A stretch of 64,000 nucleotides of DNA from Methylobacterium sp. PvR107 (GTDB lineage Bacteria > Pseudomonadota > Alphaproteobacteria > Rhizobiales > Beijerinckiaceae). Below the pieces are notes generated by a model. It was not told where the DNA came from, did not search any database, and was given only the letters and a program-made list of their open reading frames with translations. Each line of letters starts with the position of its first letter. Position 1 is the first letter of the stretch. Location: the NCBI RefSeq assembly GCF_017833295.1, contig NZ_JAFIBW010000001.1, positions 1,054,001 to 1,118,000 on the forward strand, read 5' to 3'. Below are positions 7,400-45,969 of this stretch, piece after piece. The position numbers were made by a program, and so were the translations under genes.

Positions 7400-8152
7400 A
7401 TGTCGGAATCAGGTCGGATCGCGATCGTGACCGGGGCGGGGACTGGGGTCGGCAAGGCCGCGGCCCTGGCGCTGGCCGGCGCCGGCTGGCGGATCGTGCT
7501 GTCCGGGCGGCGGCCGGGGCCGCTCGACGAGACGGCGGCGCAGATCGGCGGTGACCGGGCGCTCGTGGTGCCAACCGATGTGACCGATCCCGATTCGATC
7601 GCCAACCTGTTCGCCCGCACGCGGGCGGAATTCGGGCGACTCGACCTACTGTTCAACAATGCCGGGATCGGCGCCCCGCCGGTCCCCCTCGAGGACCTGC
7701 CGCTGGAGACGTGGCGGCAGGTGGTCGACACTAACCTGACCGCCCTGTTCCTGTGCACGCAGCACGCCTTCCGGATCATGCGCGACCAGGATCCCCGCGG
7801 CGGCCGGATCATCAACAACGGCTCGATCTCGGCGCATGCCCCGCGGCCGAACTCCATCGCCTACACGGCGACCAAGCACGCCGTGACCGGCCTGACCAAA
7901 GCGACCTCCCTCGACGGTCGCGCCTACGACATCGCCTGCGGGCAGATCGACATCGGCAACGCCGACACGCCCATGGGCGGCAAGATGAAGGCGGGCGTCC
8001 GTCAGGCGGACGGCTCGCTCCGGCCCGAGGCCGTCATGGACCCGGACCATGTCGGCCAGGCGGTTCTCACCATGGCGAGCCTCCCGCTCGAAACCAATGT
8101 GCAGTTCATGACCATCATGGCGACCAAGATGCCGTTCGTCGGACGCGGCTGA
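7400..8152 (+). CDS. SDR family NAD(P)-dependent oxidoreductase
   Basis: A 250-residue classical short-chain dehydrogenase. The cofactor motif is TGAGTGVGK (residues 11-19), followed by NNAG, a catalytic Ser in the [11 protein letters not shown] region, and the YxxxK pair Tyr155/Lys159 in YTATKHA. Gly-rich loop and length are typical. A GGAGGG-type ribosome site precedes the ATG at 7400. It stands alone between a divergent lipase gene and the chvE operon, and substrate cannot be assigned. The C-terminal half ([17 protein letters not shown]) resembles uncharacterised SDRs common in proteobacteria. Confidence 0.92.
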
Positions 8153-8160
8153 GCCGCGGG

Positions 8161-8238
8161 CGGCAAGAGCGGCAGGCGGAAAGAGCGGCAGGCGGAAAGA
8201 GCGGCAGGCGGCAAGAGCGGCGGGCGGCAAGAGCGGCC
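8161..8238. repeat. 16-bp tandem repeat, ~4.9 copies
   Basis: Five head-to-tail copies of a 16-base purine-rich unit of the form CGGMAAGAGCGGCRGG begin at 8161, 8177, 8193, 8209 and 8225, the last partial. Units two and three are identical; the others differ at one or two positions. They start just after the SDR stop codon. The remaining bases up to the chvE start at 8451 show no gene or clear signal. Confidence 0.9.
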
Positions 8239-8450
8239 GATCCTTTCCGCTGCGCGGACCGCACGATCCGCATAGCGGCGCCTCTCGGGCCGCCTCGAGC
8301 CGGGGCGCTGCCCGGCCCGTTCGTCCCGGCATGGGTCAAATCGGGGCCCGGCTCCGCGGCCATCCCGTCCCGACAACCGGCGGCCGGCACGAGTCCCGGC
8401 GCGCGGACGCCCCTCGTCCAGCCGCCCCGTGATCGCCGACGCTTCGGCCC

Positions 8451-9563
8451 ATGCCAGTCGCGGCCGTCCACAAGCGGGCGCTGAGATCCGGGATCGCCAA
8501 GCCTATATTTCTCAAGTTCGTCCTGGGTATCTCACTCCTGGGAGCGCTGGCCATGCCGGCGGCGCAGGCGGCCGGCGGCGACGCGATCGGCGTCGCCATG
8601 CCCACCAAGTCGTCACAGCGCTGGATCGACGACGGCAACAATATCGTGAAGCTGTTGCAGGCCAAGGGCTACAAGCCGGATCTGCAATATGCCGACGACG
8701 ACATCCCAACCCAGCTCGCGCAGATTGAGAACATGCTCACGAAGGGCGTGAAGCTGCTGGTGATCGCCTCGATCGACGGAACCACGCTCAGCGATGTGCT
8801 GGCGAAGGCGAGCGAGCGCGGCGTGAAGGTCATTGCCTACGACCGCCTGATCAAGGGCACGCCGAACGTCGATTATTACGCCACGTTCGACAACTACAAA
8901 GTTGGGGTCCAGCAGGCGACCTCAATTGTCGATGCGCTCGGCCTGAAGGACGAGAAGGGGCCGTTCAACATCGAGCTGTTCGGCGGCTCGCCCGACGACA
9001 ATAACGCATACTTTTTCTACGACGGTGCCCTGTCGGTGCTGAAGCCCTACATTGATGCCAAGAAGCTGGTCGTGCGCTCGGGCCAGTTCGGCATGGACAA
9101 GGTGTCGACGCTGCGCTGGGATCCCGCGACCGCGCAGGCCCGGATGGATAACCTGCTCTCGGCCTATTACGGCACCGCGCATCTCGATGCGGTGCTCTCC
9201 CCCTACGACGGCATCTCCACCGCCATCATATCGTCGGTGAAGAGCGTCGGCTACGGCTCCGGCAATGTGAAGCTGCCGGTGGTCAGTGGCCAGGATGCCG
9301 AGCTGCAGGCGGTCAAGTCGATCATCGCGGGCGAGCAGACGGCGACGATCTTCAAGGACACGCGCGAACTCGCCAAGGTGACGGTGGCGATGATCGACGC
9401 GATCGAGGCCGGCCGGCAGCCCGAGACCAACGACGCCAAGACCTACAACAACGGCAAGAAGGTCGTCCCATCGTACCTGCTGACGCCGGTCATCGTCACC
9501 AAGGCCAATTGGAAGCCGGCCCTCGTCGACACCGGCTACTACACCCTCGACCAGCTGAAGTGA
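8451..9563 (+). CDS. chvE: ChvE-type multiple monosaccharide ABC transporter, periplasmic binding protein
   Basis: A 370-residue periplasmic sugar-binding protein. The signal peptide spans about residues 1-40 (cleavage after PAAQA). The mature part begins with the strand [13 protein letters not shown] and contains AYDRLI and SGQDAE, all typical of the ChvE/xylose-arabinose-glucose binding group. In Agrobacterium ChvE delivers aldoses to GguAB and also to the VirA sensor. Here the ATPase and permease follow directly on the same strand, which supports uptake; no virulence sensor is in view. The signal peptide has an unusually long charged N-region, so the start could be misplaced, but no other ATG lies before the hydrophobic core. 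Confidence 0.93.
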
Positions 9564-9622
9564 GCGCGGCGGCCCTTGCCGCGCCGCCCGAACCCGTCTC
9601 CGCGCCGGTGCCGCCGGCGCGG
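9564..9622 (+). terminator. Two hairpins between binding-protein and ATPase genes
   Basis: Stem 1 is GCGCGGC (9564-9570) with GCCGCGC (9578-9584), starting immediately after the chvE stop. Stem 2 is a perfect 9-bp stem, 9600-9608 with 9614-9622. Neither has a U-tract. Hairpins at this place in binding-protein operons often stabilise the upstream mRNA or cause partial termination, giving more binding protein than ATPase. That role is inferred here. Confidence 0.5.
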
Positions 9623-9658
9623 GCGGCATCCTGTGCAGACTGAGCCGGAAGGGGTCGC

Positions 9659-11194
9659 ATGCAGCCCGTCCTCGAAATGCGGGGGATCTCCAAGACGTTT
9701 CCCGGCGTCAGGGCCCTCAACGACGTCAACCTGAGCATCGCACCGGCCGAGATCCATGCCCTGGTCGGCGAGAACGGCGCCGGCAAGTCGACGCTCATGA
9801 AGGTCCTGAGCGGGGTCTACCCGCACGGATCCTACGAGGGCGAGATCACCTACGAGGGGCAGCCCGGCCGGTTCCGCGACATCTCCGACAGCGAGCGCCT
9901 GGGCATCGTGATCATCCATCAGGAACTGGCCCTGGTCCCGTTCCTGTCGATCGCCGAAAACATCTTCCTCGGCAACGAGCCCGGCCGCTTCGGCATCATA
10001 GACCAGGACCGGGTCTATGCGCGGTCCCGGGAGCTGCTGGCCATGGTCGGCCTTGCGGAGAATCCCGACACCCTCGTCACCCATCTCGGCGTCGGCAAGC
10101 AGCAACTCGTCGAGATCGCCAAGGCGCTGTCCAAGAAGGTCAAGCTGCTCATCCTCGACGAGCCGACCGCATCCTTGAGCGAGACGGACAGCGAGGCGCT
10201 GCTGCAGCTGCTCCTCAGCTTCAAGGCCAAGGGCATCGCGTCGATCCTGATCTCGCACAAGCTCAACGAGATCTCCAAGGTCGCCGACCGGATCACCGTG
10301 CTGCGCGACGGCACCACCGTCGAGACCCTCGACTGCGGGAACGGCGGCGTCGACGAGGACCGGATCATCCGCGGCATGGTCGGCCGCACCATGGCCAACC
10401 GCTACCCGGTTCGCGAGCCGCGGATCGGCGACATGCTGATGGAAGTGGAGGGCTGGACGGTCCATCACCCGGTCCATGCGGAGCGGGCGGTCGTGCGCAA
10501 CGTCAGTCTGAACCTGCGCCGGGGCGAGATCGTCGGGATCGCCGGCCTGATGGGATCCGGCCGGACGGAACTCGCCATGAGCGTCTTCGGCCAGTCCTAC
10601 GGCCAGGGCACAAGCGGGACGGTCCGCATCGAGGGCCGGGAGGTCGATGTCTCGACGATCGACAAGGCGATCGCGGCGGGCATCGCCTACGTCACCGAGG
10701 ACCGCAAGCAGCTGGGGCTCGTGCTCGGCGAGGACATCACCAAGAACACCACGCTCGCCAACCTCCCCGGAGTCTCGACGGCCACAATCATCGACGAGGA
10801 TGCGGAGCACCGCGTCGCGAATGCCTATCGCTCGAAGATGCGGATCCGCTCCTTCGGCATAGGGCAGCAGACCGTGAACCTGTCGGGCGGAAACCAGCAG
10901 AAGGTCGTGCTCAGCAAGTGGCTGTTCACCCAGCCCAAGGTGCTGATCCTCGATGAGCCGACACGCGGCATCGATGTCGGCGCCAAGTACGAGATCTACA
11001 GCATCATCAACGAACTGGCCGAAGGCGGCCGCGGCGTCCTGATGATCTCGTCCGAGATGCCCGAGCTGCTCGGCCTGTGCGACCGCATCTACGTCATGAA
11101 CGAGGGGCGGTTCGTGGGTGAGTTCCAGCGCGCCGGGGCCAGCCAGGAAGCGATCATGCGCGCGATCATGCGCTCCAAGGACCTGAACGGATGA
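9659..11194 (+). CDS. gguA: Multiple monosaccharide ABC transporter, ATP-binding protein
   Basis: A 511-residue double ATPase of the RbsA/XylG/MglA type that powers sugar import. The first half has Walker [10 protein letters not shown] (37-45) and Walker B region [14 protein letters not shown]. The second half has a degenerate P-loop ([10 protein letters not shown]), then signature [15 protein letters not shown] and Walker [15 protein letters not shown] weak second Walker A is usual in this family. The gene follows chvE after 95 bases with two hairpins, and its stop overlaps the start of the permease gene by 4 bases, indicating translational coupling. Confidence 0.95.
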
Positions 11195-36099: not shown

Positions 36100-36295
36100 C
36101 CGGCCCTCGCCTGACCCGAACCCGATTGCGCGGCGACTCTGCCTGCGTGCCCGGGTGTCTCGCGGCCGCTTATGCCGCCAGCCCCGCGACCGGCGCAAGC
36201 CTCGCCCGCCTCTGGCCGGGCACCGCTTGGCCTGCCGGTCCCCAGACCGTACATAGGTGCGACGCCCGATTGATGACCCGCGAAAAGTCCCGACG

Positions 36296-37123
36296 ATGCA
36301 GCAGGAACAGGCCACCGCGCAGGGCACGCGCCGCGCCCCGGAACCGCCGATTCACGGTCCCGAGGGCTTCGAGGGGATGCGCCGGGCCGGCCGCCTCACG
36401 GCCGAGGCCCTCGATCTGCTGATGGAAGCGACCCAGCCGGGCGTCACCACCGAGGCGCTCGATCAGCTCGCCTACGAGTTCGCCATGGATCACGGCGCCT
36501 ATCCGGCGTCGCTGCTCTACCGCGGCTACCCGAAGTCGATCTGCACCTCGATCAACCACGTGGTCTGCCACGGTATCCCGAACGACAAGCCCCTGCGCGA
36601 AGGCGACATCGTCAACCTCGACATCTGCCTGATCCTCGATGGCTGGCACGGTGATTCGAGCCGCATGGCCTATGTCGGCGAGGTCCCCCGCAAGGCGCAG
36701 CGGCTGTGCGAGATCACCTACGAGGCCCTGATGCGCGGCGTCGCGGCGGTGAAGCCCGGCGGCTCGACCAACGATATCGGCCGGGCGATCCAGACCTATG
36801 CCGAGAGCGAGCGCTGCTCGGTCGTGCGCGATTTCTGCGGGCACGGGCTCGGGCGTACCTATCACGACGCGCCCACGATCCTGCATTACGTCGAGGCGAG
36901 CTACGACGTGCCGTTCAGGCCCGGCCAGTTCTTCACGGTCGAGCCGATGATCAATCTGGGGCGCCCCGCGGTGAAGGTGCTGGGCGATGGCTGGACGGCG
37001 GTGACCCGCGACCGCTCGCTCTCGGCTCAGTTCGAGCACACCGTGGGCGTCACCGAGACCGGCGTCGAGATTTTCACGATCTCCCCGAAGGGGCTGCACC
37101 AGCCCGTCAATCCCGCCGCCTGA
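36296..37123 (+). CDS. map: Methionine aminopeptidase, type I
   Basis: A 275-residue enzyme removing the initiator Met from nascent proteins. The five metal ligands are visible: Asp109, Asp120, His183, Glu216 and Glu247, in IVNLDICL, HGDSSRM, CGHGLGR, TVEPMI and QFEHTV. The N-terminus carries ~20 extra residues. ATG 36296 was chosen over an earlier in-frame start at 36257. radC begins 7 bases downstream. Its presence is relevant to Anbu, whose N-terminal Thr must be exposed by Met removal. Confidence 0.97.
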   Translation: MQQEQATAQGTRRAPEPPIHGPEGFEGMRRAGRLTAEALDLLMEATQPGVTTEALDQLAYEFAMDHGAYPASLLYRGYPKSICTSINHVVCHGIPNDKPLREGDIVNLDICLILDGWHGDSSRMAYVGEVPRKAQRLCEITYEALMRGVAAVKPGGSTNDIGRAIQTYAESERCSVVRDFCGHGLGRTYHDAPTILHYVEASYDVPFRPGQFFTVEPMINLGRPAVKVLGDGWTAVTRDRSLSAQFEHTVGVTETGVEIFTISPKGLHQPVNPAA

Positions 37124-37129
37124 CCGACC

Positions 37130-37876
37130 GTGATCGCCGGGGCGGACGACGGTGATGCGGGGCTGTTCGCCGACAGCGCCGTCCCATCGTCCGTCGAGAA
37201 GGAGCCGCCGCATTATCACGGTCACCGCGACCGCCTGCGGGAGAAATTCGCGGCCGGCGGCGGCGACGCACTGCCCGATTACGAATTGCTCGAGCTGGTC
37301 CTGTTCCGGGCGATCCCCCGGCGCGACGTGAAGCCCCTCGCCAAGGCCCTGGTCTCCCGGTTCGGCAGCTTCGCCGAGGTGGTGAGCGCCGAGCCGGCTC
37401 GGCTCCTGGAAGTGGAGGGTGTGAGCGCCGGGGTCGCCTCCGACCTGAAGGTGATCGAGGCCGCAGCCCGGCGCCTCGCCCGGGGTGCTCTCCGCGAACG
37501 CGCGCTGCTCGATTCGTGGAGCGCCCTCCACGAGTACCTGCGCGCCACCATGGCGTTCGCCCCCCGTGAGGAATTTCGCGTGCTGTTCCTCGACAAGCGC
37601 AACCATCTGATCGCCGACGAGGTGCAGGGCCGCGGCACCGTCGACCATACGCCGGTCTACCCGCGCGAGGTCGCCCGCCGGGCTCTGGAGCTTTCAGCGA
37701 CTGCCATCATCCTCGCCCACAATCATCCCTCCGGCGATCCGACGCCGTCGAGCGCCGACGTCGCGATGACCCGCGAGATCGTGAACATACTGGCACCGCT
37801 GAAGATCGTCGTCCACGACCACGTCATCCTCGGCCGAAACGGTCATGCCAGCCTGAAAGGTCTGAAGTTGATCTGA
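37130..37876 (+). CDS. radC: RadC family protein (UPF0758, JAMM domain)
   Basis: A 248-residue protein with N-terminal helix-hairpin-helix-like residues ([14 protein letters not shown]) and a C-terminal JAMM metalloprotease-like core. The metal motif is HNHPSGDP (197-204) with Asp210, and the upstream Glu is in IADEVQGRG. Despite the name, a DNA-repair role is not established. The start is GTG at 37130, 7 bases after map, suggesting co-transcription, an arrangement common in alphaproteobacteria. Confidence 0.95.
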
Positions 37877-37972
37877 TCCTCTGGCCGCCTTGAGCGTTAT
37901 CGCCTGCGTCTATAGCCATGGATGCGTGGCGCGCCTCTTGCCTCAAGAGCGGGAGCGTAGGGGAGGAGCGAG

Positions 37973-39412
37973 ATGGCGGTGACAGCCTTCGACGAGATGA
38001 ACGGTATCGGCACCGGCGCCGCCGATCCGGCCGCCGTTCGCGACGCCTACGGCCAGCTCAAGGCGTGGCTGGATTCGACGCCACCGGAGCATTTCAACAC
38101 CCGCCGCAGCCAGGCCGAGCTGCTGTTCCGCCGGATCGGCATCACCTTCGCGGTCTACGGCGACAACGAATCGACCGAGCGCCTGATTCCGTTCGATATC
38201 ATCCCGCGGGTGATCACCAAGCCGGAATGGGGCTTCCTGGAGCGGGGGCTGAAGCAGCGGGTTACCGCCATCAACCTGTTCCTGAAGGACATCTACGGCG
38301 CCCAGGAATGCATCAAGGCCGGCATCATCCCGGCCGACCTCGTCTACCGGAACGCCCATTACCGCATGGAGATGCGCGGCTTCCGCGTGCCCCACGACCT
38401 CTACGTGCACATCGCCGGCATCGACATCGTCCGCACCGGCGAGAACGACTTCTTCGTGCTGGAGGACAACGCCCGGATTCCATCCGGCGTCTCCTACATG
38501 CTGGAGAACCGGGAGGTGATGCTGCGCCTGTTCCCGGACCTGTTCTCGAAGCACCGGGTCGCGCCGGTGGAGAATTACCCGGACGCCCTGCTCGCCACCC
38601 TGCGCAGCCTCGCGCCGGGCTCGGCGACCCGCGACCCGACCGTCGTGCTGCTCACCCCCGGGCGCTACAATTCCGCGTTCTACGAGCACTCGTTCCTGGC
38701 CGACAAGCTCGGGGTCGAGCTGGTCGAGGCGTCCGACCTCTTCACCAAGGACGACGTGGTCTACATGCGCACCACCGAGGGCCCGCGGAAGGTCGACGTG
38801 ATCTACCGCCGCCTCGACGACGAATTCCTCGATCCCCTCGTCTTCCGCCCGGATTCGGTCCTCGGCGTGCCGGGGCTGATGAACGCCTACGAGCGCGGCT
38901 CGGTGACCCTCGCCAACGCGGTCGGGACCGGCATCTCGGACGACAAGGCGGTCTACAGCTACATGCCGGAGATCGTGAAGTTCTTCACCGGCGAGGAGCC
39001 GATCCTGCACAACGTGCCGACCTATCGCTGCCGCGAGAAGGACGCCTTCGCGTACGTGATGGACAACCTCTCCGACCTCGTGGTGAAGGAGGTCAATGGC
39101 TCCGGCGGCTACGGCATGCTGGTCGGCCCGCATGCCAGCAAGCGCGAGCTCGACGACTTCGCCAAGAAGCTCAAGCACGCCCCGGACGGGTTCATCGCCC
39201 AGCCGACCCTGTCGCTCTCCACCTGCCCGACCTTCGTGGCCTCGGGCGTCGCGCCTCGCCACGTCGACCTGCGGCCGTTCGTGCTGTGCGGTGCCGACCA
39301 GATCCGCATCGTTCCCGGCGGCCTGACCCGGGTAGCGCTGAAGGAAGGCTCCCTGGTGGTCAATTCCAGCCAGGGCGGTGGTACCAAGGACACCTGGGTG
39401 CTCGACGCCTGA
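37973..39412 (+). CDS. Circularly permuted type 2 ATP-grasp protein
   Basis: A 479-residue protein of the CP-ATPgrasp family. It shows FNTRRSQAELLFRRIGITF and VYGDNESTERLIPFDIIPR near the N-terminus, FFVLEDNARIPSGVSYMLEN mid-protein, and VKEVNGSGGYGMLVGPHAS near the C-terminus, as in other members. ATP-grasp enzymes form amide or peptide-like bonds from carboxyl phosphates. It is first in the cluster with alpha-E, transglutaminase and Anbu. A strong GGGGAGGAGCGAG ribosome site precedes the ATG. The product formed is unknown. Confidence 0.93.
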   Translation: MAVTAFDEMNGIGTGAADPAAVRDAYGQLKAWLDSTPPEHFNTRRSQAELLFRRIGITFAVYGDNESTERLIPFDIIPRVITKPEWGFLERGLKQRVTAINLFLKDIYGAQECIKAGIIPADLVYRNAHYRMEMRGFRVPHDLYVHIAGIDIVRTGENDFFVLEDNARIPSGVSYMLENREVMLRLFPDLFSKHRVAPVENYPDALLATLRSLAPGSATRDPTVVLLTPGRYNSAFYEHSFLADKLGVELVEASDLFTKDDVVYMRTTEGPRKVDVIYRRLDDEFLDPLVFRPDSVLGVPGLMNAYERGSVTLANAVGTGISDDKAVYSYMPEIVKFFTGEEPILHNVPTYRCREKDAFAYVMDNLSDLVVKEVNGSGGYGMLVGPHASKRELDDFAKKLKHAPDGFIAQPTLSLSTCPTFVASGVAPRHVDLRPFVLCGADQIRIVPGGLTRVALKEGSLVVNSSQGGGTKDTWVLDA

Positions 39413-39477
39413 GGTTTACGACGTCCGGACGTTCCGAGGCGCGGACATCGTGGTCCGCACGACTTGGCTGAAGACCG

Positions 39478-40425
39478 ATGCTTTCCAGGACTGCCGATAA
39501 CCTCTTCTGGCTCTCGCGCTACGTCGAGCGGGCCGATTTCGTCGCCCGCATCCTCGACGCGGCGCACCGCTTCGCGTCGTTGCCGACGAGCTACGGCGGC
39601 GGCAGCAGCAACGAGTGGGACTCCGCCCTGGCCTCGGCCGGCGACCCGGACGCCTTCAAGACCCACTACAGCGCGGTGAACGCCGACACGGTCTGCGACT
39701 TCCTGGCGTTCAGCCCGCACAACCCGTCCTCGATCCGCTCCTGCATCGAGGCGGCCCGCGAGAATGCCCGCTCGGTGCGCACGGCGCTCACCACCGAGAT
39801 GTGGGACGCGATCAACGGCGCGTGGCTGGAGCTGCGCAACTACGCCGGCAAAGACCTCAACCGGGACGAGTTCGGCCGCTTCCTCGACTGGGTCAAGACC
39901 GTATCGCTGACCTTCGACGGTTCGGCGTTCCGGACGATGCTGCGCAACGACGCCTTCTGGTTCACCCGGCTCGGCACGGCGATCGAGCGGGCCGACAACA
40001 CCGCCCGCATCCTCGACGTGAAGTACCAGATCCTGCTGCCGCACGACGAGACGGTGGGTGGCAGCCTCGACTACTTTCAGTGGACCACGATCCTGCGCGA
40101 GGTCTCGGCGTTCAACGCCTATCACTGGGTCTATCGCGAGAGCATCAAGCCGCTGCTGGTGGCCGACCTGCTGATGCTCAACAAGCAGATGCCCCGCTCC
40201 TTCGCCAACTGCTACGGCGTCATCGTCGAGTACCTGGACCTGATCGCCGATTCGTACGGGCGCCGGGGCCCGAGCCAGCGGCTCGCCGGCAACATGCTGG
40301 CGAAACTCGAGGGCGAGGACATCAACCGGGTGTTCGCCGGGGGGCTGCACGAGTTCGTGGAGGCGTTCATCGCCGAGAACAACAGCGTAGGCGAAGCGAT
40401 CGCCAAGCAGTATCTGGTCGGCTGA
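39478..40425 (+). CDS. Alpha-E domain protein
   Basis: A 315-residue, mostly helical protein of the alpha-E family. Features include MLSRTADNLFWLSRYVERAD at the N-terminus, FWFTRLGTAIERADNTARIL and FNAYHWVYRE. These proteins always travel with CP-ATPgrasp and transglutaminase genes; a helper or binding role is presumed. It begins 65 bases after the ATP-grasp gene. No catalytic residues are apparent. Confidence 0.93.
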   Translation: MLSRTADNLFWLSRYVERADFVARILDAAHRFASLPTSYGGGSSNEWDSALASAGDPDAFKTHYSAVNADTVCDFLAFSPHNPSSIRSCIEAARENARSVRTALTTEMWDAINGAWLELRNYAGKDLNRDEFGRFLDWVKTVSLTFDGSAFRTMLRNDAFWFTRLGTAIERADNTARILDVKYQILLPHDETVGGSLDYFQWTTILREVSAFNAYHWVYRESIKPLLVADLLMLNKQMPRSFANCYGVIVEYLDLIADSYGRRGPSQRLAGNMLAKLEGEDINRVFAGGLHEFVEAFIAENNSVGEAIAKQYLVG

Positions 40426-40446
40426 ACGAGACGGACGGGACAGCGC

Positions 40447-41274
40447 ATGCGCATCCGCGTGGTTCACGAGACCATCTACACCTACGAGCAGCCGGCGCGC
40501 GGGCTCGTGCAGGTCCTGCGGCTGACGCCGCGCGATCATGACGGGCAGTACGTCCGCACGTGGCGGATCGACACCACCGTCGACGGACGCCTGACCGCCC
40601 GCGAGGACGGGTTCGGCAACGTCGTCCACTGGTTCACCCCGGACGAGCCGGCCGACGCCCTGACCATCCGCGTCACCGGCGAGGTCGATACCGACGACAC
40701 GAACGGCGTCGTGCGCGGCACGGTTGAGCGCCTACCGGATCAGTTCTACCTGCGCGACACGGACCTGTGTGCCGCGAGTCCGGAGCTGCACGCCTTCGCC
40801 GAGCGCGTCGCGACGGCGGGGGACGGTGCCGTTCTGGCCCTGCTCCACCGGCTGATGGGCGCCGTCCAGGGCGCCGTGGCCTACGAGCCCGGCCCCGCCA
40901 CCAGTGCCGTCCCGGCCGGCAGGGCCTTCGCGGCCGGGCGCGGCGTCTGCCAGGATCTTGCCCACGTCTACATTGCCGCTGCGCGTCACATCGGCGTCCC
41001 GACACGCTACGTGGCCGGCTACCGGGCCCGGGACGACGGGCAGGCGGACGTCGAGGCGCCCCACGGATGGGTCGAGGCCCTGGTGCCGGATCTCGGCTGG
41101 GTGGCGTTCGACCCCTGCTACGACGTCAGCCCGGCGGACAATTATATCCGCGTCGCGACCGGCCTGGACTATCTCGGCGCGGCGCCGATCCGCGGCAGCC
41201 GTACCGGGGGTGGCACCGAAACACTGGACGTGAAGCTGCGGGTCGAGCAAGGCAGGGCCTCCGCTCAATCCTGA
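40447..41274 (+). CDS. Transglutaminase-like cysteine protease
   Basis: A 275-residue protein. The N-terminal beta domain (MRIRVVHETIYTYEQPARGL) is typical of bacterial transglutaminase-like enzymes. The catalytic triad is Cys168 (GRGVCQDLAH), His206 (APHGWVEA) and Asp222 (WVAFDPC). It could hydrolyse or transfer amide bonds. It lies 21 bases after the alpha-E gene and 44 before Anbu. No signal peptide is seen, so it is probably cytoplasmic. Confidence 0.93.
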   Translation: MRIRVVHETIYTYEQPARGLVQVLRLTPRDHDGQYVRTWRIDTTVDGRLTAREDGFGNVVHWFTPDEPADALTIRVTGEVDTDDTNGVVRGTVERLPDQFYLRDTDLCAASPELHAFAERVATAGDGAVLALLHRLMGAVQGAVAYEPGPATSAVPAGRAFAAGRGVCQDLAHVYIAAARHIGVPTRYVAGYRARDDGQADVEAPHGWVEALVPDLGWVAFDPCYDVSPADNYIRVATGLDYLGAAPIRGSRTGGGTETLDVKLRVEQGRASAQS

Positions 41275-41318
41275 TCGTTCAGACACCGGTCCGCCGACCG
41301 CACGAGGGCCTGAAGACG

Positions 41319-42071
41319 ATGACCTACTGCGTCGGTGTTCTGGTCGAGGAAGGGCTGGTCATGGTCGCCGATACCCGCACCAATGCGGGGCTCGACGACA
41401 TCTCGACCTACCGAAAGCTCCACCATTTCAACGTGCCGGGCGAGCGGGTGATGATGCTCGCCTCGGCGGGCAACCTCTCGATCACCCAGTCGGTGCTCAG
41501 CCTGCTCCAGGAGGGCGTGCCCAGCGAGGACGACGGCGAGCCGCCGCAGAAGCTCGTCGAGGCGCCGACGATGTTCCAGGCGGCGCAGCTCATCGGCCGG
41601 GCGATCCGGCTGGTGCGATCGATCGAGAAGGATGGATTCGAGGCCGCCAATATCCGGTTCTCGATCTCCCTGCTGTTCGGCGGCCAGATCGGAACCGACG
41701 AGATGCGGCTGTACCTGATCTACTCGGCGGGCAACTTCATCGAGTGCAGCACCGACGCGCCGTTCCTCCAGATCGGCGAGCACAAATACGGCAAGCCGAT
41801 CCTGGACCGGGCGGTGAAGTACACGACCGAGCTGTACGATGCCCTGAAGGTCAGCCTCGTCTCGATGGATTCGACCATGCGGTCGAATCTCGGCGTCGGC
41901 CTGCCGATCGACATCGCCTTGACCCGTCGGAATGCGCTGACGCTGGAGGTGAACCACCGGATCGAGGCCGGCGAGGGCTATTTCCACGACCTGCGCGAGC
42001 GTTGGTCGGCGGCGCTTCGGGCCGCGCACCGGGCCATCCCGCGGCCGCCCTATGGGCCTTCCAACTCCTAG
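41319..42071 (+). CDS. Anbu-type proteasome-like peptidase
   Basis: A 250-residue Ntn-hydrolase of the Anbu (ancestral beta subunit) type. After Met removal the N-terminus is Thr1 (TYCVGVLVEEGLVMVADTRT); Asp17 and Lys32 also fall at the catalytic proteasome positions. Anbu forms large rings or helices and sits in gene clusters with ATP-grasp, alpha-E and transglutaminase genes, as here. Peptidase activity has been hard to show for the family. The start ATG at 41319 exposes Thr1; upstream codons belong to another reading. Confidence 0.93.
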   Translation: MTYCVGVLVEEGLVMVADTRTNAGLDDISTYRKLHHFNVPGERVMMLASAGNLSITQSVLSLLQEGVPSEDDGEPPQKLVEAPTMFQAAQLIGRAIRLVRSIEKDGFEAANIRFSISLLFGGQIGTDEMRLYLIYSAGNFIECSTDAPFLQIGEHKYGKPILDRAVKYTTELYDALKVSLVSMDSTMRSNLGVGLPIDIALTRRNALTLEVNHRIEAGEGYFHDLRERWSAALRAAHRAIPRPPYGPSNS

Positions 42072-42089
42072 AGCCGCCCCATCATCGGG

Positions 42090-42181
42090 CGTCTTTGCGA
42101 GCTGAGCGAAGCAATCCAGGGCGGCGCGTCATCGCCGGACTTGGCGCGTCCCTCGATTGCTTCGCGGTGCTCGCAAAGACG
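42090..42181. repeat. REP-like long palindrome
   Basis: The arms 42090-42120 and about 42151-42181 are inverted copies. Thirteen bases (CGTCTTTGCGAGC) and eleven bases (GCGAAGCAATC) pair exactly, separated by a three-base bubble. This matches the GCGAAGCAATCC repeat type seen in many Rhizobiales genomes. It lies between Anbu and the convergent thiE and may protect or end both transcripts. A degenerate relative lies at 12482-12566. Confidence 0.85.
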
Positions 42182-42212
42182 GCATCTGTTACCCTCAGGT
42201 CATCGTCCGAGC

Positions 42213-42851
42213 TTATGAAGCCTCCGCGGCGCTCCAGGCCTTCAGGAGCGCCCGCGTCGCTCCGGCCGGATCCTCGGCGCGCATCAGGCCGCCCATGATG
42301 GCGAAACCCGCCGCGCCTGCCGCGCGACAGGACCCGATCGCCTCGGGACCGAGACCGCCGAGCGCCACCACGGGCAGCCCGGCGCCGCAGCTGTCCGTGA
42401 TTCCCTTGAGACCTAGCGCCGGTCCGTAGCCGGGCTTGCTCGCGGTCGCGTAGATCGGGCTGAGGGTCACGTAATCGGCGCCGGCCTTCGCGGCGGTTGC
42501 GGCCTCGCGCGGCGCGTGCGCCGAGACGCCGATCAGCGCAGCCTCGCCCAACGCGGCCCGCGCCGCAGCGATCGCCGCACGCCCCGAGCCGCCGCCGAGA
42601 TGCACGCCGTCGGCACCGAGGGCGCGCGCCAGTGCGACATCGCCTCCAATCGTCAGGACGCCGTTCATGGCCCGCACGCACTCGGCCACGCGCGTGCCGA
42701 GGCGTCGCCGCGCGTCCGATTCCAGGTCCTTGTCCCGGAACCAGATCCAGCACCCGCCGCCGTCGAGGATCGCCTGCACGGTCTCGACGAGCGGCCGCGG
42801 ATGCCCGTGCCGGTCCGTCACCGCCAGCATCCGTGACGGCAGCGCTGTCAC
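42213..42851 (-). CDS. thiE: Thiamine phosphate synthase-like protein
   Basis: A 212-residue TIM-barrel protein. Visible are [56 protein letters not shown] and [12 protein letters not shown]. Thiamine phosphate synthase joins the thiazole and pyrimidine moieties. The start is GTG at 42851, overlapping the thiG stop by 4 bases. Some motifs ([14 protein letters not shown]) lean toward the TenI-like branch, a thiazole tautomerase, so the precise reaction is less certain than the fold. It is last in thiO-S-G-E. Confidence 0.85.
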
Positions 42852-43866: not shown

Positions 43867-45086
43867 GCCGAGACCCTCCGGGGCTCGGGGCGGCCGAACC
43901 GCGCCAGGGTGAAGGGCCGGGCGACATCCGGCAGGACGCCCTCCAGTATCAAGCCGGCTACGGCGTCGGCGGTGATGGGGGCCAGCAGGTAGCCGTTGCG
44001 GTGATGGCCCGTGGCGGCGACGAGACCGGGGGCGATCACGTCGAGGATCGGCGCGTCGTCGTCCGAGGTGGGGCGGTAGCCGCTCCAGACAGCCTCGACC
44101 TCCATCTCTTCGATTCCGGGCAGCACCCGGCGTGCGCCCTCCAGCAAGGCGTAGAGGCCGCCCGCGGTGACGCCGGGCCGGAAGCCGCAATCCTCCACGG
44201 TGGCGCCGACGATGAGCTGGCCGTCGCTCTTCGGCGCCATGTGGACCTGCTCGGTCCAGATCATCCGGCCAAGCGTGCCGGTGCGCGGCGTGGTACGCAG
44301 GGCCAGCGACTGGCCCTTGAGCGGCCGGACCGGCAGAGCGAGCCCCTCCGGCAGCAGGCCGCCCTCCCCGCTCCAGGCACCGGAGGCCAGCACCACGGTC
44401 TCCGCCGCGAGGCCGCGATCCCCGGCCCGAATACCCGCGACACGGCCGCCCGAATAGTCGAGGGCGGTGACGGGCGTCCGCTCCACCAGGGTGACGCCGG
44501 CCCGACGGCAGGCTTCGGTGAGGGCGTGCATGACCAGCCGGGGATCGACCTGGTGGTCCAGCGGGCAGTGGATCCCGGCGGTGACGGAGGGGCGCAGGCC
44601 GGGCTCCAGCCGCCGAACCTCGCTGCCCGGCAGCCAGATCGCGTCGAGCCCGGAGCGGCGCTGCAGATCGAAGCGGAAGCGGAGGCGCTCGACCTCGTCG
44701 CGGCCGACCGCCAGGACCAGGGTGCCATCGGGACGGTAATCGATCGCGCGGCCGGACTCGGCTTCCAGGGCATCGCGGAATCCGGGCCAGAGCCGGAGCG
44801 ACTCCAGGGCGAGCGGCAGGAGCGGATCCGAGCCGGGCTCGTGCTCGGCGGCGGGGGCCAGCATGCCGGTGGCTGCGAGGCTCGCGCCCGCGCCGATCGT
44901 GTCCCGCTCCAGCACGGTCACGGTGCGGCCCGCCCGGGCGAGCCGCCACGCAATCGACAGGCCGATCAGCCCGCCGCCGATGACGGCGATGTCGGTCCGC
45001 GCCGGCAGAGCCACGGGTGCGACACCGCAATCGGGGCTGCGGCGGCGGCCGATCGGTGAAGCGGGGCGGTCGAGGGGCACGGGCAT
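43863..45086 (-). CDS. thiO: Glycine oxidase ThiO
   Basis: Up to 407 residues; a D-amino-acid-oxidase-fold flavoprotein that oxidises glycine to iminoglycine for thiazole formation in aerobes. The FAD site is [21 protein letters not shown]. Other motifs are [19 protein letters not shown] and the C-terminal [17 protein letters not shown]. The ATG at 45086 has no well-spaced ribosome site; the family N-terminus (DIAVIGGG) starts ~30 residues in, so a later GTG is possible. It is the first gene behind the TPP riboswitch. Confidence 0.93.
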
Positions 45087-45163
45087 CTCCGCGGATTGCC
45101 GTCGCGGGAACCGGGCCCTGTGCTTCGGTGAGAAGCTGTGGCCTGCCTTTCGGGCGGCCGCGG

Positions 45164-45274
45164 TCCAATCCCTACGCCGGTATGAGCCGGATCAGGTTCA
45201 AAGGATTTCCGCGCCGCAGGTCCTGACGGACGTGCCAGCGGTTTCTCAGCCCCTTGCCGGGGATCTCCCTGGAA
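45164..45274 (-). promoter_or_regulatory. TPP riboswitch (THI element) upstream of thiOSGE
   Basis: The minus strand carries the conserved blocks GGGGCTGAGAAACC and GAACCTGATCCGG, then ATACCGGCGTAGGGA. The outer stem pairs TTCCA (5', 45274-45270) with TTGGA (3', 45068+100 region, 45168-45164). Thiamine pyrophosphate binding would repress the operon. The element ends about 80 bases before the thiO ATG. Whether control is by termination or by blocking the ribosome site cannot be told. Confidence 0.95.
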
Positions 45275-45462
45275 CGGGACAGATGTGGTCGCCCGCGCCG
45301 CATCGGTCAACCCCGCCGCTGACCGGCAGCGGCCGACGGACGGACATTCGTCGGACGCAGTCACCACCCGGATACCAAGCCGGACGAAAGCCAGCCGCCG
45401 GGCACCGGCCCTTCACGGATCGGGCGAAGACTACACAGCTCTGTCGGGTCGGAGCGGGAAGC

Positions 45463-45969
45463 GTGCGCACATTCGTGGTTGTCTGCACGATCGGCTTCCT
45501 GTCGACGATGGCTTTCCAGAAGCTGCGTGAGCGGACGCGTCCGGATCCAGTTGAACGGGCCTCAGCCGCGGCAACGGCGTCGGTTCTCGACGGAGCGGTG
45601 GCCGGCGTTGCGCTTCAGGCCGGGCGCAACGGGCACTTCTTCGTGAATGCCCTGATGGACGGTCGCGCCCTGTCGATGATGGTCGATACCGGCGCGAGTT
45701 CCTGTGCCTTCTCGGAGGAGGATGCCGAGCGGATCGGAATCCGTGTCCGCGCGGGCGATTTCAGCCGCGTCTGGAACACCGCGAACGGGACGGTCCGAGT
45801 GGCGCCGATCCGGATCGCCGTATTGCAGGTCGGTTCGATCACCGTGCGGGATGTGGACGCGGTGGTGATCCCGCGGGGGCGCCTCAGCTTGAGCCTGCTC
45901 GGCATGTCGTTTCTCAAGCGCCTGCGCGAGTTCAGCGTCAGCGGCGGAACGATGACCCTGCGGGGGTGA
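45463..45969 (+). CDS. Membrane-anchored retropepsin-like aspartic protease
   Basis: A 168-residue protein of the clan AA, TIGR02281-like group. An N-terminal hydrophobic segment (VRTFVVVCTIGFLSTMAF) is a membrane anchor or signal. The active-site motif is MMVDTGASSCAFS. A second conserved block reads LSLSLLGMSFLKRL near the end. One DTG motif implies it works as a dimer, like retroviral proteases. The start is GTG at 45463 with GGAG ~8 bases upstream. It is divergent from the riboswitch operon. Confidence 0.88.
   Translation: MRTFVVVCTIGFLSTMAFQKLRERTRPDPVERASAAATASVLDGAVAGVALQAGRNGHFFVNALMDGRALSMMVDTGASSCAFSEEDAERIGIRVRAGDFSRVWNTANGTVRVAPIRIAVLQVGSITVRDVDAVVIPRGRLSLSLLGMSFLKRLREFSVSGGTMTLRG

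Follow-up and report, generated by a model that had tools for sequence, protein, structure and literature searches.

Anbu is a widespread relative of the proteasome beta subunit for which structures have been solved and no substrate is known. Structural work on it has come from Fuchs et al., Piasecka et al. and Vielberg et al., the last as cited in PMC8665760, and the particles published for relatives of the protein described here are open or lock-washer rings rather than closed ones (PMC5666114, PMC6376114). The Anbu cluster considered here lies in a 64,000 nucleotide (nt) stretch of the genome of Methylobacterium sp. PvR107, a single contig of 6.36 Mb; the whole of this stretch is referred to as the window. 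A sequence-only reading of the window had recognised the Anbu operon and regarded the substrate of Anbu as unsettled, both of which hold. It had also called the system under-described, a relative term given the published structural work, and had attributed to Anbu large self-assembling rings, to be corrected to open or lock-washer ones.

The cluster is a complete copy of the published Anbu operon, present in a Methylobacterium, and its features are listed in Table 1. As had been noticed, the four genes are on the same strand and separated by short gaps, of 65, 21 and 44 nt between ligase, Alpha-E, transglutaminase and Anbu, and their Pfam matches are, in order, CP_ATPgrasp_2, Alpha-E, Bact_transglu_N with Transglut_core, and Proteasome. 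The Anbu start is taken as the ATG at 41319; the open reading frame list shows a longer frame with an upstream GTG. In positions 37800-42400, neither a sigma-70-like promoter nor an intrinsic terminator was found by a simple consensus scan. The four genes are probably co-transcribed. Recurrence of the gene set, also stated in the sequence-only reading, is seen in a class sample of 192 genomes, where 31 of 41 linked Anbu matches have the order ligase, Alpha-E, transglutaminase, Anbu, the remainder being ligase, Alpha-E, Anbu (8) and others (2). The same order is present in 55 of 80 named loci, which are the best-scoring of 597 matches and hence mostly close relatives. The arrangement is therefore not a chance one.

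Table 1. Features of the Anbu cluster, its upstream region and the second cluster of the same genome. Coordinates are window positions unless another locus is given.
Feature	Coordinates	Strand	Basis or remark
Sigma-54-type (-24/-12) element TGGCGCGCCTCTTGCC	37927..37942	+	46 nt before ATP-grasp ATG
CP-ATP-grasp ligase (CP_ATPgrasp type 2), 479 aa	37973..39412	+	PF14403, 545.6 bits
Alpha-E, 315 aa	39478..40425	+	PF04168, 320.2 bits; constant ligase neighbour
Alpha-E first repeat, residues 8-155, ER motif E17-R18	39499..39942	+	hhalign
Alpha-E second repeat, residues 161-313, ER motif E170-R171	39958..40416	+	hhalign
Transglutaminase-like enzyme, 275 aa, C168-H206-D222	40447..41274	+	PF08379, 81.2 bits; PF01841, 70.2 bits
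Anbu, proteasome beta-subunit relative, 250 aa, T1/D17/K32	41319..42071	+	Matches to solved Anbu
map and radC	36257-37876		Just upstream of ligase gene
Fused CP-ATP-grasp/Alpha-E paralogue	L013 (G000:C1:6012000-6031000) 7656-10280	minus	

The distribution of the genes suggests that Anbu depends one-way on the CP-ATP-grasp ligase. Of the class-sample genomes 59 have Anbu, 75 have Alpha-E, and the CP-ATP-grasp family and the transglutaminase N-domain were each detected in 76, leaving out a weak second CP-ATP-grasp fragment in G036 (27.8 bits) and a sub-cut-off transglutaminase N-domain in G156. A stand-alone ligase (an open frame of <780 aa, the fused form being ≥780 aa) is present in all 59 Anbu genomes, linked or unlinked, and Anbu is present in 0 of the 116 genomes without the CP-ATP-grasp family. 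There are 65 Anbu matches, 41 within 12 kb of a ligase and 24 not, and in 18 of the 59 Anbu genomes no Anbu lies within 12 kb of a ligase on one contig, although in at least three of these 18 (G036, G127 and G149) the unlinked status may reflect contig ends. One Anbu genome has no Alpha-E (G127, whose cluster is interrupted by a contig end) and one has no transglutaminase N-domain (G154). In the other direction, 17 genomes have ligase and Alpha-E with no detected Anbu. A phylum sample of 269 genomes, in which the Anbu profile was made from 21 proteins and stand-alone and fused ligases were pooled, gave the CP-ATP-grasp family in 103 of 105 Anbu genomes, and 54 genomes with the family and no detected Anbu, two of the 54 being below the family cut-off. 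Eleven Anbu genomes belong to both samples. At 77 of the 78 stand-alone ligase loci of the class sample an Alpha-E match lies on the ligase's strand no more than 700 bp away. The ligase/Alpha-E pair should therefore be seen as the core of the system, with the transglutaminase and Anbu as attachments.

A sigma-54-type element is positioned 5' of the ligase gene. The sequence TGGCGCGCCTCTTGCC has 10 of the 12 informative positions of the sigma-54 consensus TGGCACGN4TTGCW, and its GG and GC are spaced as in a -24/-12 promoter. When the upstream regions of the window and five genomes of the same genus are aligned, it is the sole well-conserved block besides the ribosome-binding site. The pattern TGGCRCGN4TTGC, written after the site had been seen, has one exact match in the window. 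Upstream of the ligase, a textbook consensus score of at least 10 is reached on the sense strand of 26 out of 103 loci and on the other strand of 3 out of 103; among the controls, coding sequence reaches it at 0 out of 103 loci, shuffled sequence in about 1% of cases and the roughly defined upstream regions of other open reading frames in 9 out of 439. The pattern TGGCN7TTGC, chosen after these results, is present upstream of the ligase at 30 of 103 loci in the sense direction and at 2 of 103 in the antisense; of 439 upstream regions used as controls, 10 have it. Counted by family, the element is found at -130 to -20 in 12 of 66, whereas matches at any position of the opposite strand occur in 2 of 66; within the window's own family it is present in 11 of 12 sampled genomes. 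Of the best 80 named loci 60 were usable, and 31 of these have the element in the sense and none (0/60) in the antisense direction, a set that is not independent, being the top 80 of 597 matches, with some records (L233 and L235 among them) that appear to repeat genomes sampled earlier. The comparative case for a predicted sigma-54 element before ligase genes is strong.

Control of the Anbu operon by nitrogen and sigma-54 is already known in parts. In Pseudomonas putida the log2 fold change on nitrate versus ammonium is 4.44 for PP_2685 (proteasome beta) and 3.99 for PP_2688 (CP-ATP-grasp), and the PP_2688 promoter has a 3.7-fold response to nitrogen depletion (PMC8050072). COG3484, which is Anbu, is among the predicted sigma-54 regulon members in alpha-, beta- and gamma-proteobacteria (PMC12316311), and a Bradyrhizobium ATP-grasp protein, not shown to be the Anbu-operon ligase, has a predicted sigma-54 site (PMC13207237). 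In marine metagenomes, Anbu-operon domains are associated with urea-metabolism domains (PMC3597751). The extent of the element before ligase genes and its presence in Methylobacterium were not found in the passages of these sigma-54 and nitrogen accounts.

The explanation preferred here, which has about an even chance of being correct, is that the cluster is a nitrogen-limitation operon with one sigma-54 promoter, in which an amide-linked compound formed by the ligase is later hydrolysed by Anbu. Transcription of the operon from this promoter would probably take place under nitrogen limitation. The CP-ATP-grasp ligase with Alpha-E would then join a carboxylate to an amine at the expense of ATP, and the transglutaminase-like cysteine enzyme may trim or transfer the resulting amide. 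Anbu, as an N-terminal-threonine hydrolase, would act downstream to cleave the amide-linked product, freeing nitrogen or recycling the carrier. The proposed order of action, ligase and then Anbu, is based on the one-way dependence, and the proposed chemistry on homology, both to the solved protein 3n6x and through the synthetase-like folds of a fused paralogue described below.

The ligase has a solved relative, 3n6x (expectation value, E, 8.7e-200). E164, D165, N166, K372, G378 and G379 are conserved in 75 out of 75 stand-alone ligases and G381 in 74 out of 75, these being the window protein and those 74 of the other 77 in the class sample that are inside fetched loci. By analogy with glutathionylspermidine synthetase, E164, D165, N166, K372 and the glycine loop are presumably the ATP and metal residues. 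The Yersinia ATP-grasp protein liberates phosphate from ATP (PMC6376114). The transglutaminase residues named in the sequence-only reading, C168, H206 and D222, are present in the window and are conserved in 46, 49 and 49, respectively, of 50 aligned transglutaminases, with one row gapped there; these were drawn from fetched loci, some of them adjoining fused clusters. With a Cys-His-Asp triad in its core domain, the enzyme belongs to the transglutaminase-like superfamily.

The Alpha-E model is all helical and well predicted (mean predicted local distance difference test score 94.0, predicted template modelling score 0.92). It has no solved relative by sequence, the best PDB match being an antibody chain at E 0.35, and no fold stands out when the model is compared with the PDB. 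Profiles of its N-terminal and C-terminal halves do match each other in hhalign (probability 99.5, E 1.1e-22, score 134.7, 147 columns), with scores of 10.4 to 23.0 in 15 column-permuted controls. As judged from these profiles, Alpha-E is a tandem duplication with one ER motif in each half, which was not found stated in the passages of the Anbu literature or in the Pfam description line.

Anbu is barely above the Pfam cut-off (PF00227, 24.8 bits against 22.4) but has counterparts in five different Anbu sequences of known structure (5loy, 5nyj, 5nyf, 5lox and 5nyw), best of all 5loy, at E 1.3e-77 over residues 2-245. The three residues that had been picked out, T1, D17 and K32, are present in the window protein; in an alignment of 65 Anbu proteins from 59 genomes T1 and K32 are each conserved in 65 and D17 in 64. 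The sole D17 exception is a truncated copy of 107 aa in G060 (L094:6730-7050, minus strand), in which D17 is replaced by G and which is probably decaying.

A special case of the preferred explanation has no protein target. Here the ligase would make a glutathionylspermidine-like or glutathione-like conjugate, serving as nitrogen carrier or store, and the transglutaminase and Anbu would be amidases. To our knowledge there is no corresponding metabolite, and a large ring-forming threonine hydrolase would be an odd choice of amidase. This small-molecule pathway is nevertheless a tentative possibility, given that the solved folds nearest to the fused paralogue's ATP-grasp half after 3n6x are those of glutathione, glutathionylspermidine and trypanothione synthetases, that 17 and 54 genomes of the two samples keep the ligase family with no Anbu detected, and that nitrogen regulation is published for genes of these kinds (PMC8050072, PMC12316311, PMC5491218).

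Several observations weigh against a nitrogen-limitation operon whose product is made by the ligase and hydrolysed by Anbu. With one mismatch allowed, TGGCRCGN4TTGC has four matches in the window, not above the chance mean of 5.09, so that the argument from the single site is weak when taken alone. The element is missing at 73 of 103 ligase loci and 29 of 60 named loci, and sigma-54 control is not therefore universal. It was found before none of the 34 unlinked Anbu genes scanned (0/22 and 0/12; for G036 only about 50 nt upstream were covered). No convincing NtrC site was found in the window, the best scoring 8/10 and those of the same-genus genomes 7 or 8; among 18 loci scanned, a score of 10/10 was reached only in L189. 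The dependence on the ligase also has exceptions, as G272 and G420, both of one genus (L152 and L153), have Anbu with no CP-ATP-grasp detected genome-wide. G216, from the same family, has ligase, Alpha-E and Anbu with the same type of neighbour gene adjoining, and the two exceptions are read as probable secondary loss. Presence and absence follow clades, and Fisher values therefore overstate independence. From published work, the assayed Anbu proteins showed no peptidase activity on three fluorogenic substrates and no complex among the operon proteins was detected (PMC6376114), while PMC5666114 favours protein degradation, opposes a role in peptide synthesis and finds that proteasome inhibitors bind Anbu.

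If Anbu were a general nitrogen-starvation protease, its link to the ligase would merely be one of shared regulation. The published induction under nitrogen limitation (PMC8050072) would fit this, as would the presence of Anbu without detected ligase in G272 and G420. However, genomes with only an unlinked Anbu retain the ligase, and the sigma-54 element is carried by none of the 34 unlinked Anbu genes scanned. Shared sigma-54 control therefore fails to explain the co-occurrence, and a general protease is improbable.

The sequence-only reading had proposed that the ATP-grasp enzyme and transglutaminase attach and remove a peptide-like tag and that Anbu degrades the tagged proteins. This hypothesis is already in print in PMC5666114 and PMC6376114, both of which credit Iyer et al. 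2009. In the form considered here, ATP-grasp and Alpha-E would attach an amino acid or short peptide, the transglutaminase would edit it, and Anbu would degrade the marked proteins. The one-way dependence of Anbu on the ligase (59/59 and 103/105) fits the proposal, but it fits a non-protein product equally. Homology to the proteasome with retention of T1, D17 and K32 is also in keeping with protein tagging, as is the binding of proteasome inhibitors by Anbu (PMC5666114). Set against this are the published lack of peptidase activity and of binding among the operon proteins (PMC6376114) and, by Pfam, the lack of an AAA+ unfoldase gene among the four genes, map and radC. Nor was the small substrate or tag gene expected near orthologous clusters found. 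Clusters of open reading frames with a median length of ≤140 aa in at least three genomes were sought in 98 loci and the window, 22 of these loci holding only an unlinked Anbu; the search was of a kind that very short, fast-evolving or distant genes could escape. It gave ClpS, in 5 genomes, and three further clusters in 3 genomes each, one of which looks ferredoxin-like by eye; none is a recurrent tag gene. An amino-acid tag or a distant tag gene is compatible with this result. Protein tagging is, on balance, rather unlikely.

A group of alphaproteobacterial families has a split system, in which the ligase and Alpha-E precede bpt, the gene for Leu/Arg-tRNA-protein transferase, and Anbu often has phasin, clpS and clpA as neighbours. 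Of the 18 genomes whose Anbu is unlinked throughout, 9 have bpt directly after ligase/Alpha-E on the same strand (ligase loci L102-L104 and L106-L111). The gene was identified by PF04376/PF04377 in the two of these nine that were scanned with Pfam and as an NCBIfam arginyltransferase in the four scanned for it, and its candidate start is 9-72 nt past the Alpha-E stop in five of the nine loci, with none listed for the other four. In six out of ten genomes, the nine plus G028, no more than about 2 kb separates Anbu from clpS and clpA (Anbu loci L086-L090 and L092). It is conceivable, if very improbable, that nitrogen-limited cells use the ligase and Alpha-E to mark proteins with a peptide or single amino acid, and that the N-degron route and Anbu read the mark; were this true, the Anbu system would be a bacterial conjugation pathway creating degrons. 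Against such a link, four of the ten genomes have clpS-clpA at a distance from Anbu (L200-L203). In four fetched genomes of one genus (g13) that have no Anbu, bpt is near the transglutaminase on the opposite strand, and the ligase-less relatives L192 and L193 keep bpt in the same block, as does L196, which has its ligase elsewhere in the genome. The ligase pair has therefore either entered a syntenic block or dropped out of it, and the adjacency of bpt and ligase may reflect one or two ancestral events. No published link between Anbu and the N-degron route was found in one literature search, which is weak evidence of its absence from print.

The same genome has a second cluster (L013) with a DUF2126-transglutaminase of 1092 aa, a fused CP-ATP-grasp/Alpha-E protein of 874 aa and another transglutaminase. 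The fused form is found in 29 of the 192 class-sample genomes, all of which also carry the stand-alone ligase. In 26 aligned fused proteins position 164 is never E, position 166 is R in 24 and K372 is retained in 4; in the glycine loop, G379 is G in 9 and G381 is G in 5. The fold is kept, with a template modelling score of 0.87 on 3n6x. The fused paralogue is probably a pseudo-ligase, with misalignment around the loop possible, and because the presumed ATP and metal residues are gone while an intact ligase is present in all 29 genomes, it is a candidate pseudo-enzyme regulator. No sigma-54 element was found before the first gene of this cluster. In Burkholderia cenocepacia, a cluster comprising a transglutaminase-domain protein and a large protein is among the targets common to sigma-54 and NtrC (PMC5491218); going by the names, it may be of the same type.

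The map gene upstream of the ligase had been suggested to expose Thr1 of Anbu. Thr1 directly follows the initiator in all 65 Anbu proteins, the codon being ATG in 56, GTG in 8 and TTG in 1 (by residue read), so that an ordinary methionine aminopeptidase should suffice. Both map and radC are present at 19 of the best 80 named loci, 13 of them in Methylobacteriaceae and the rest in Bosea and a few other Hyphomicrobiales. The two genes adjoin the cluster in five of five same-genus genomes and in none of six genomes from four other genera of the family; their adjacency is local synteny, and a role for map as the partner that exposes Thr1 is not supported. Elsewhere in the window, the C-terminal part of the product of an open reading frame at 44863-45969 resembles, by eye, a retropepsin-type aspartic protease with a DTGAS motif.

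From the one-way dependence of Anbu on the ATP-grasp/Alpha-E pair, the substrate of Anbu is probably made by that pair, and nitrogen-limited cells are the place to seek it. The sigma-54 element points to harmless and genetically tractable methylotrophs for such study, and specific mutants are suggested by the fused paralogue, which looks inactive, and by the duplicated fold of Alpha-E.

Compared with known systems, the Anbu cluster differs from HslV and the 20S proteasome in that Pfam finds no AAA+ unfoldase in its operon, and from Pup-like and ubiquitin-like tagging in that no small tag gene was found to recur nearby. The second cluster has paralogous domains, but is without Anbu, the one Anbu match of the genome being that of the window. 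Glutathionylspermidine synthetase/amidase combines an ATP-grasp ligase with a cysteine amidase. The Anbu operon resembles it in the pairing of a ligase and a cysteine enzyme, and 2io7 is similar in fold to the fused paralogue's ATP-grasp half, but the operon has these as separate genes with Alpha-E and Anbu in addition, and is not a member of that system. In P. putida PP_2685-PP_2688 the Anbu and CP-ATP-grasp transcripts rise jointly (PMC8050072); expression was measured there, whereas in Methylobacterium there is the promoter element with no clear NtrC site. The published Anbu operon is the closest of all, having the identical four genes in a conserved order with the same catalytic residues (PMC5666114, PMC6376114). 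The Methylobacterium cluster is distinguished from it by its host, by map-radC upstream and by the sigma-54 element, and in gene content it is no different.

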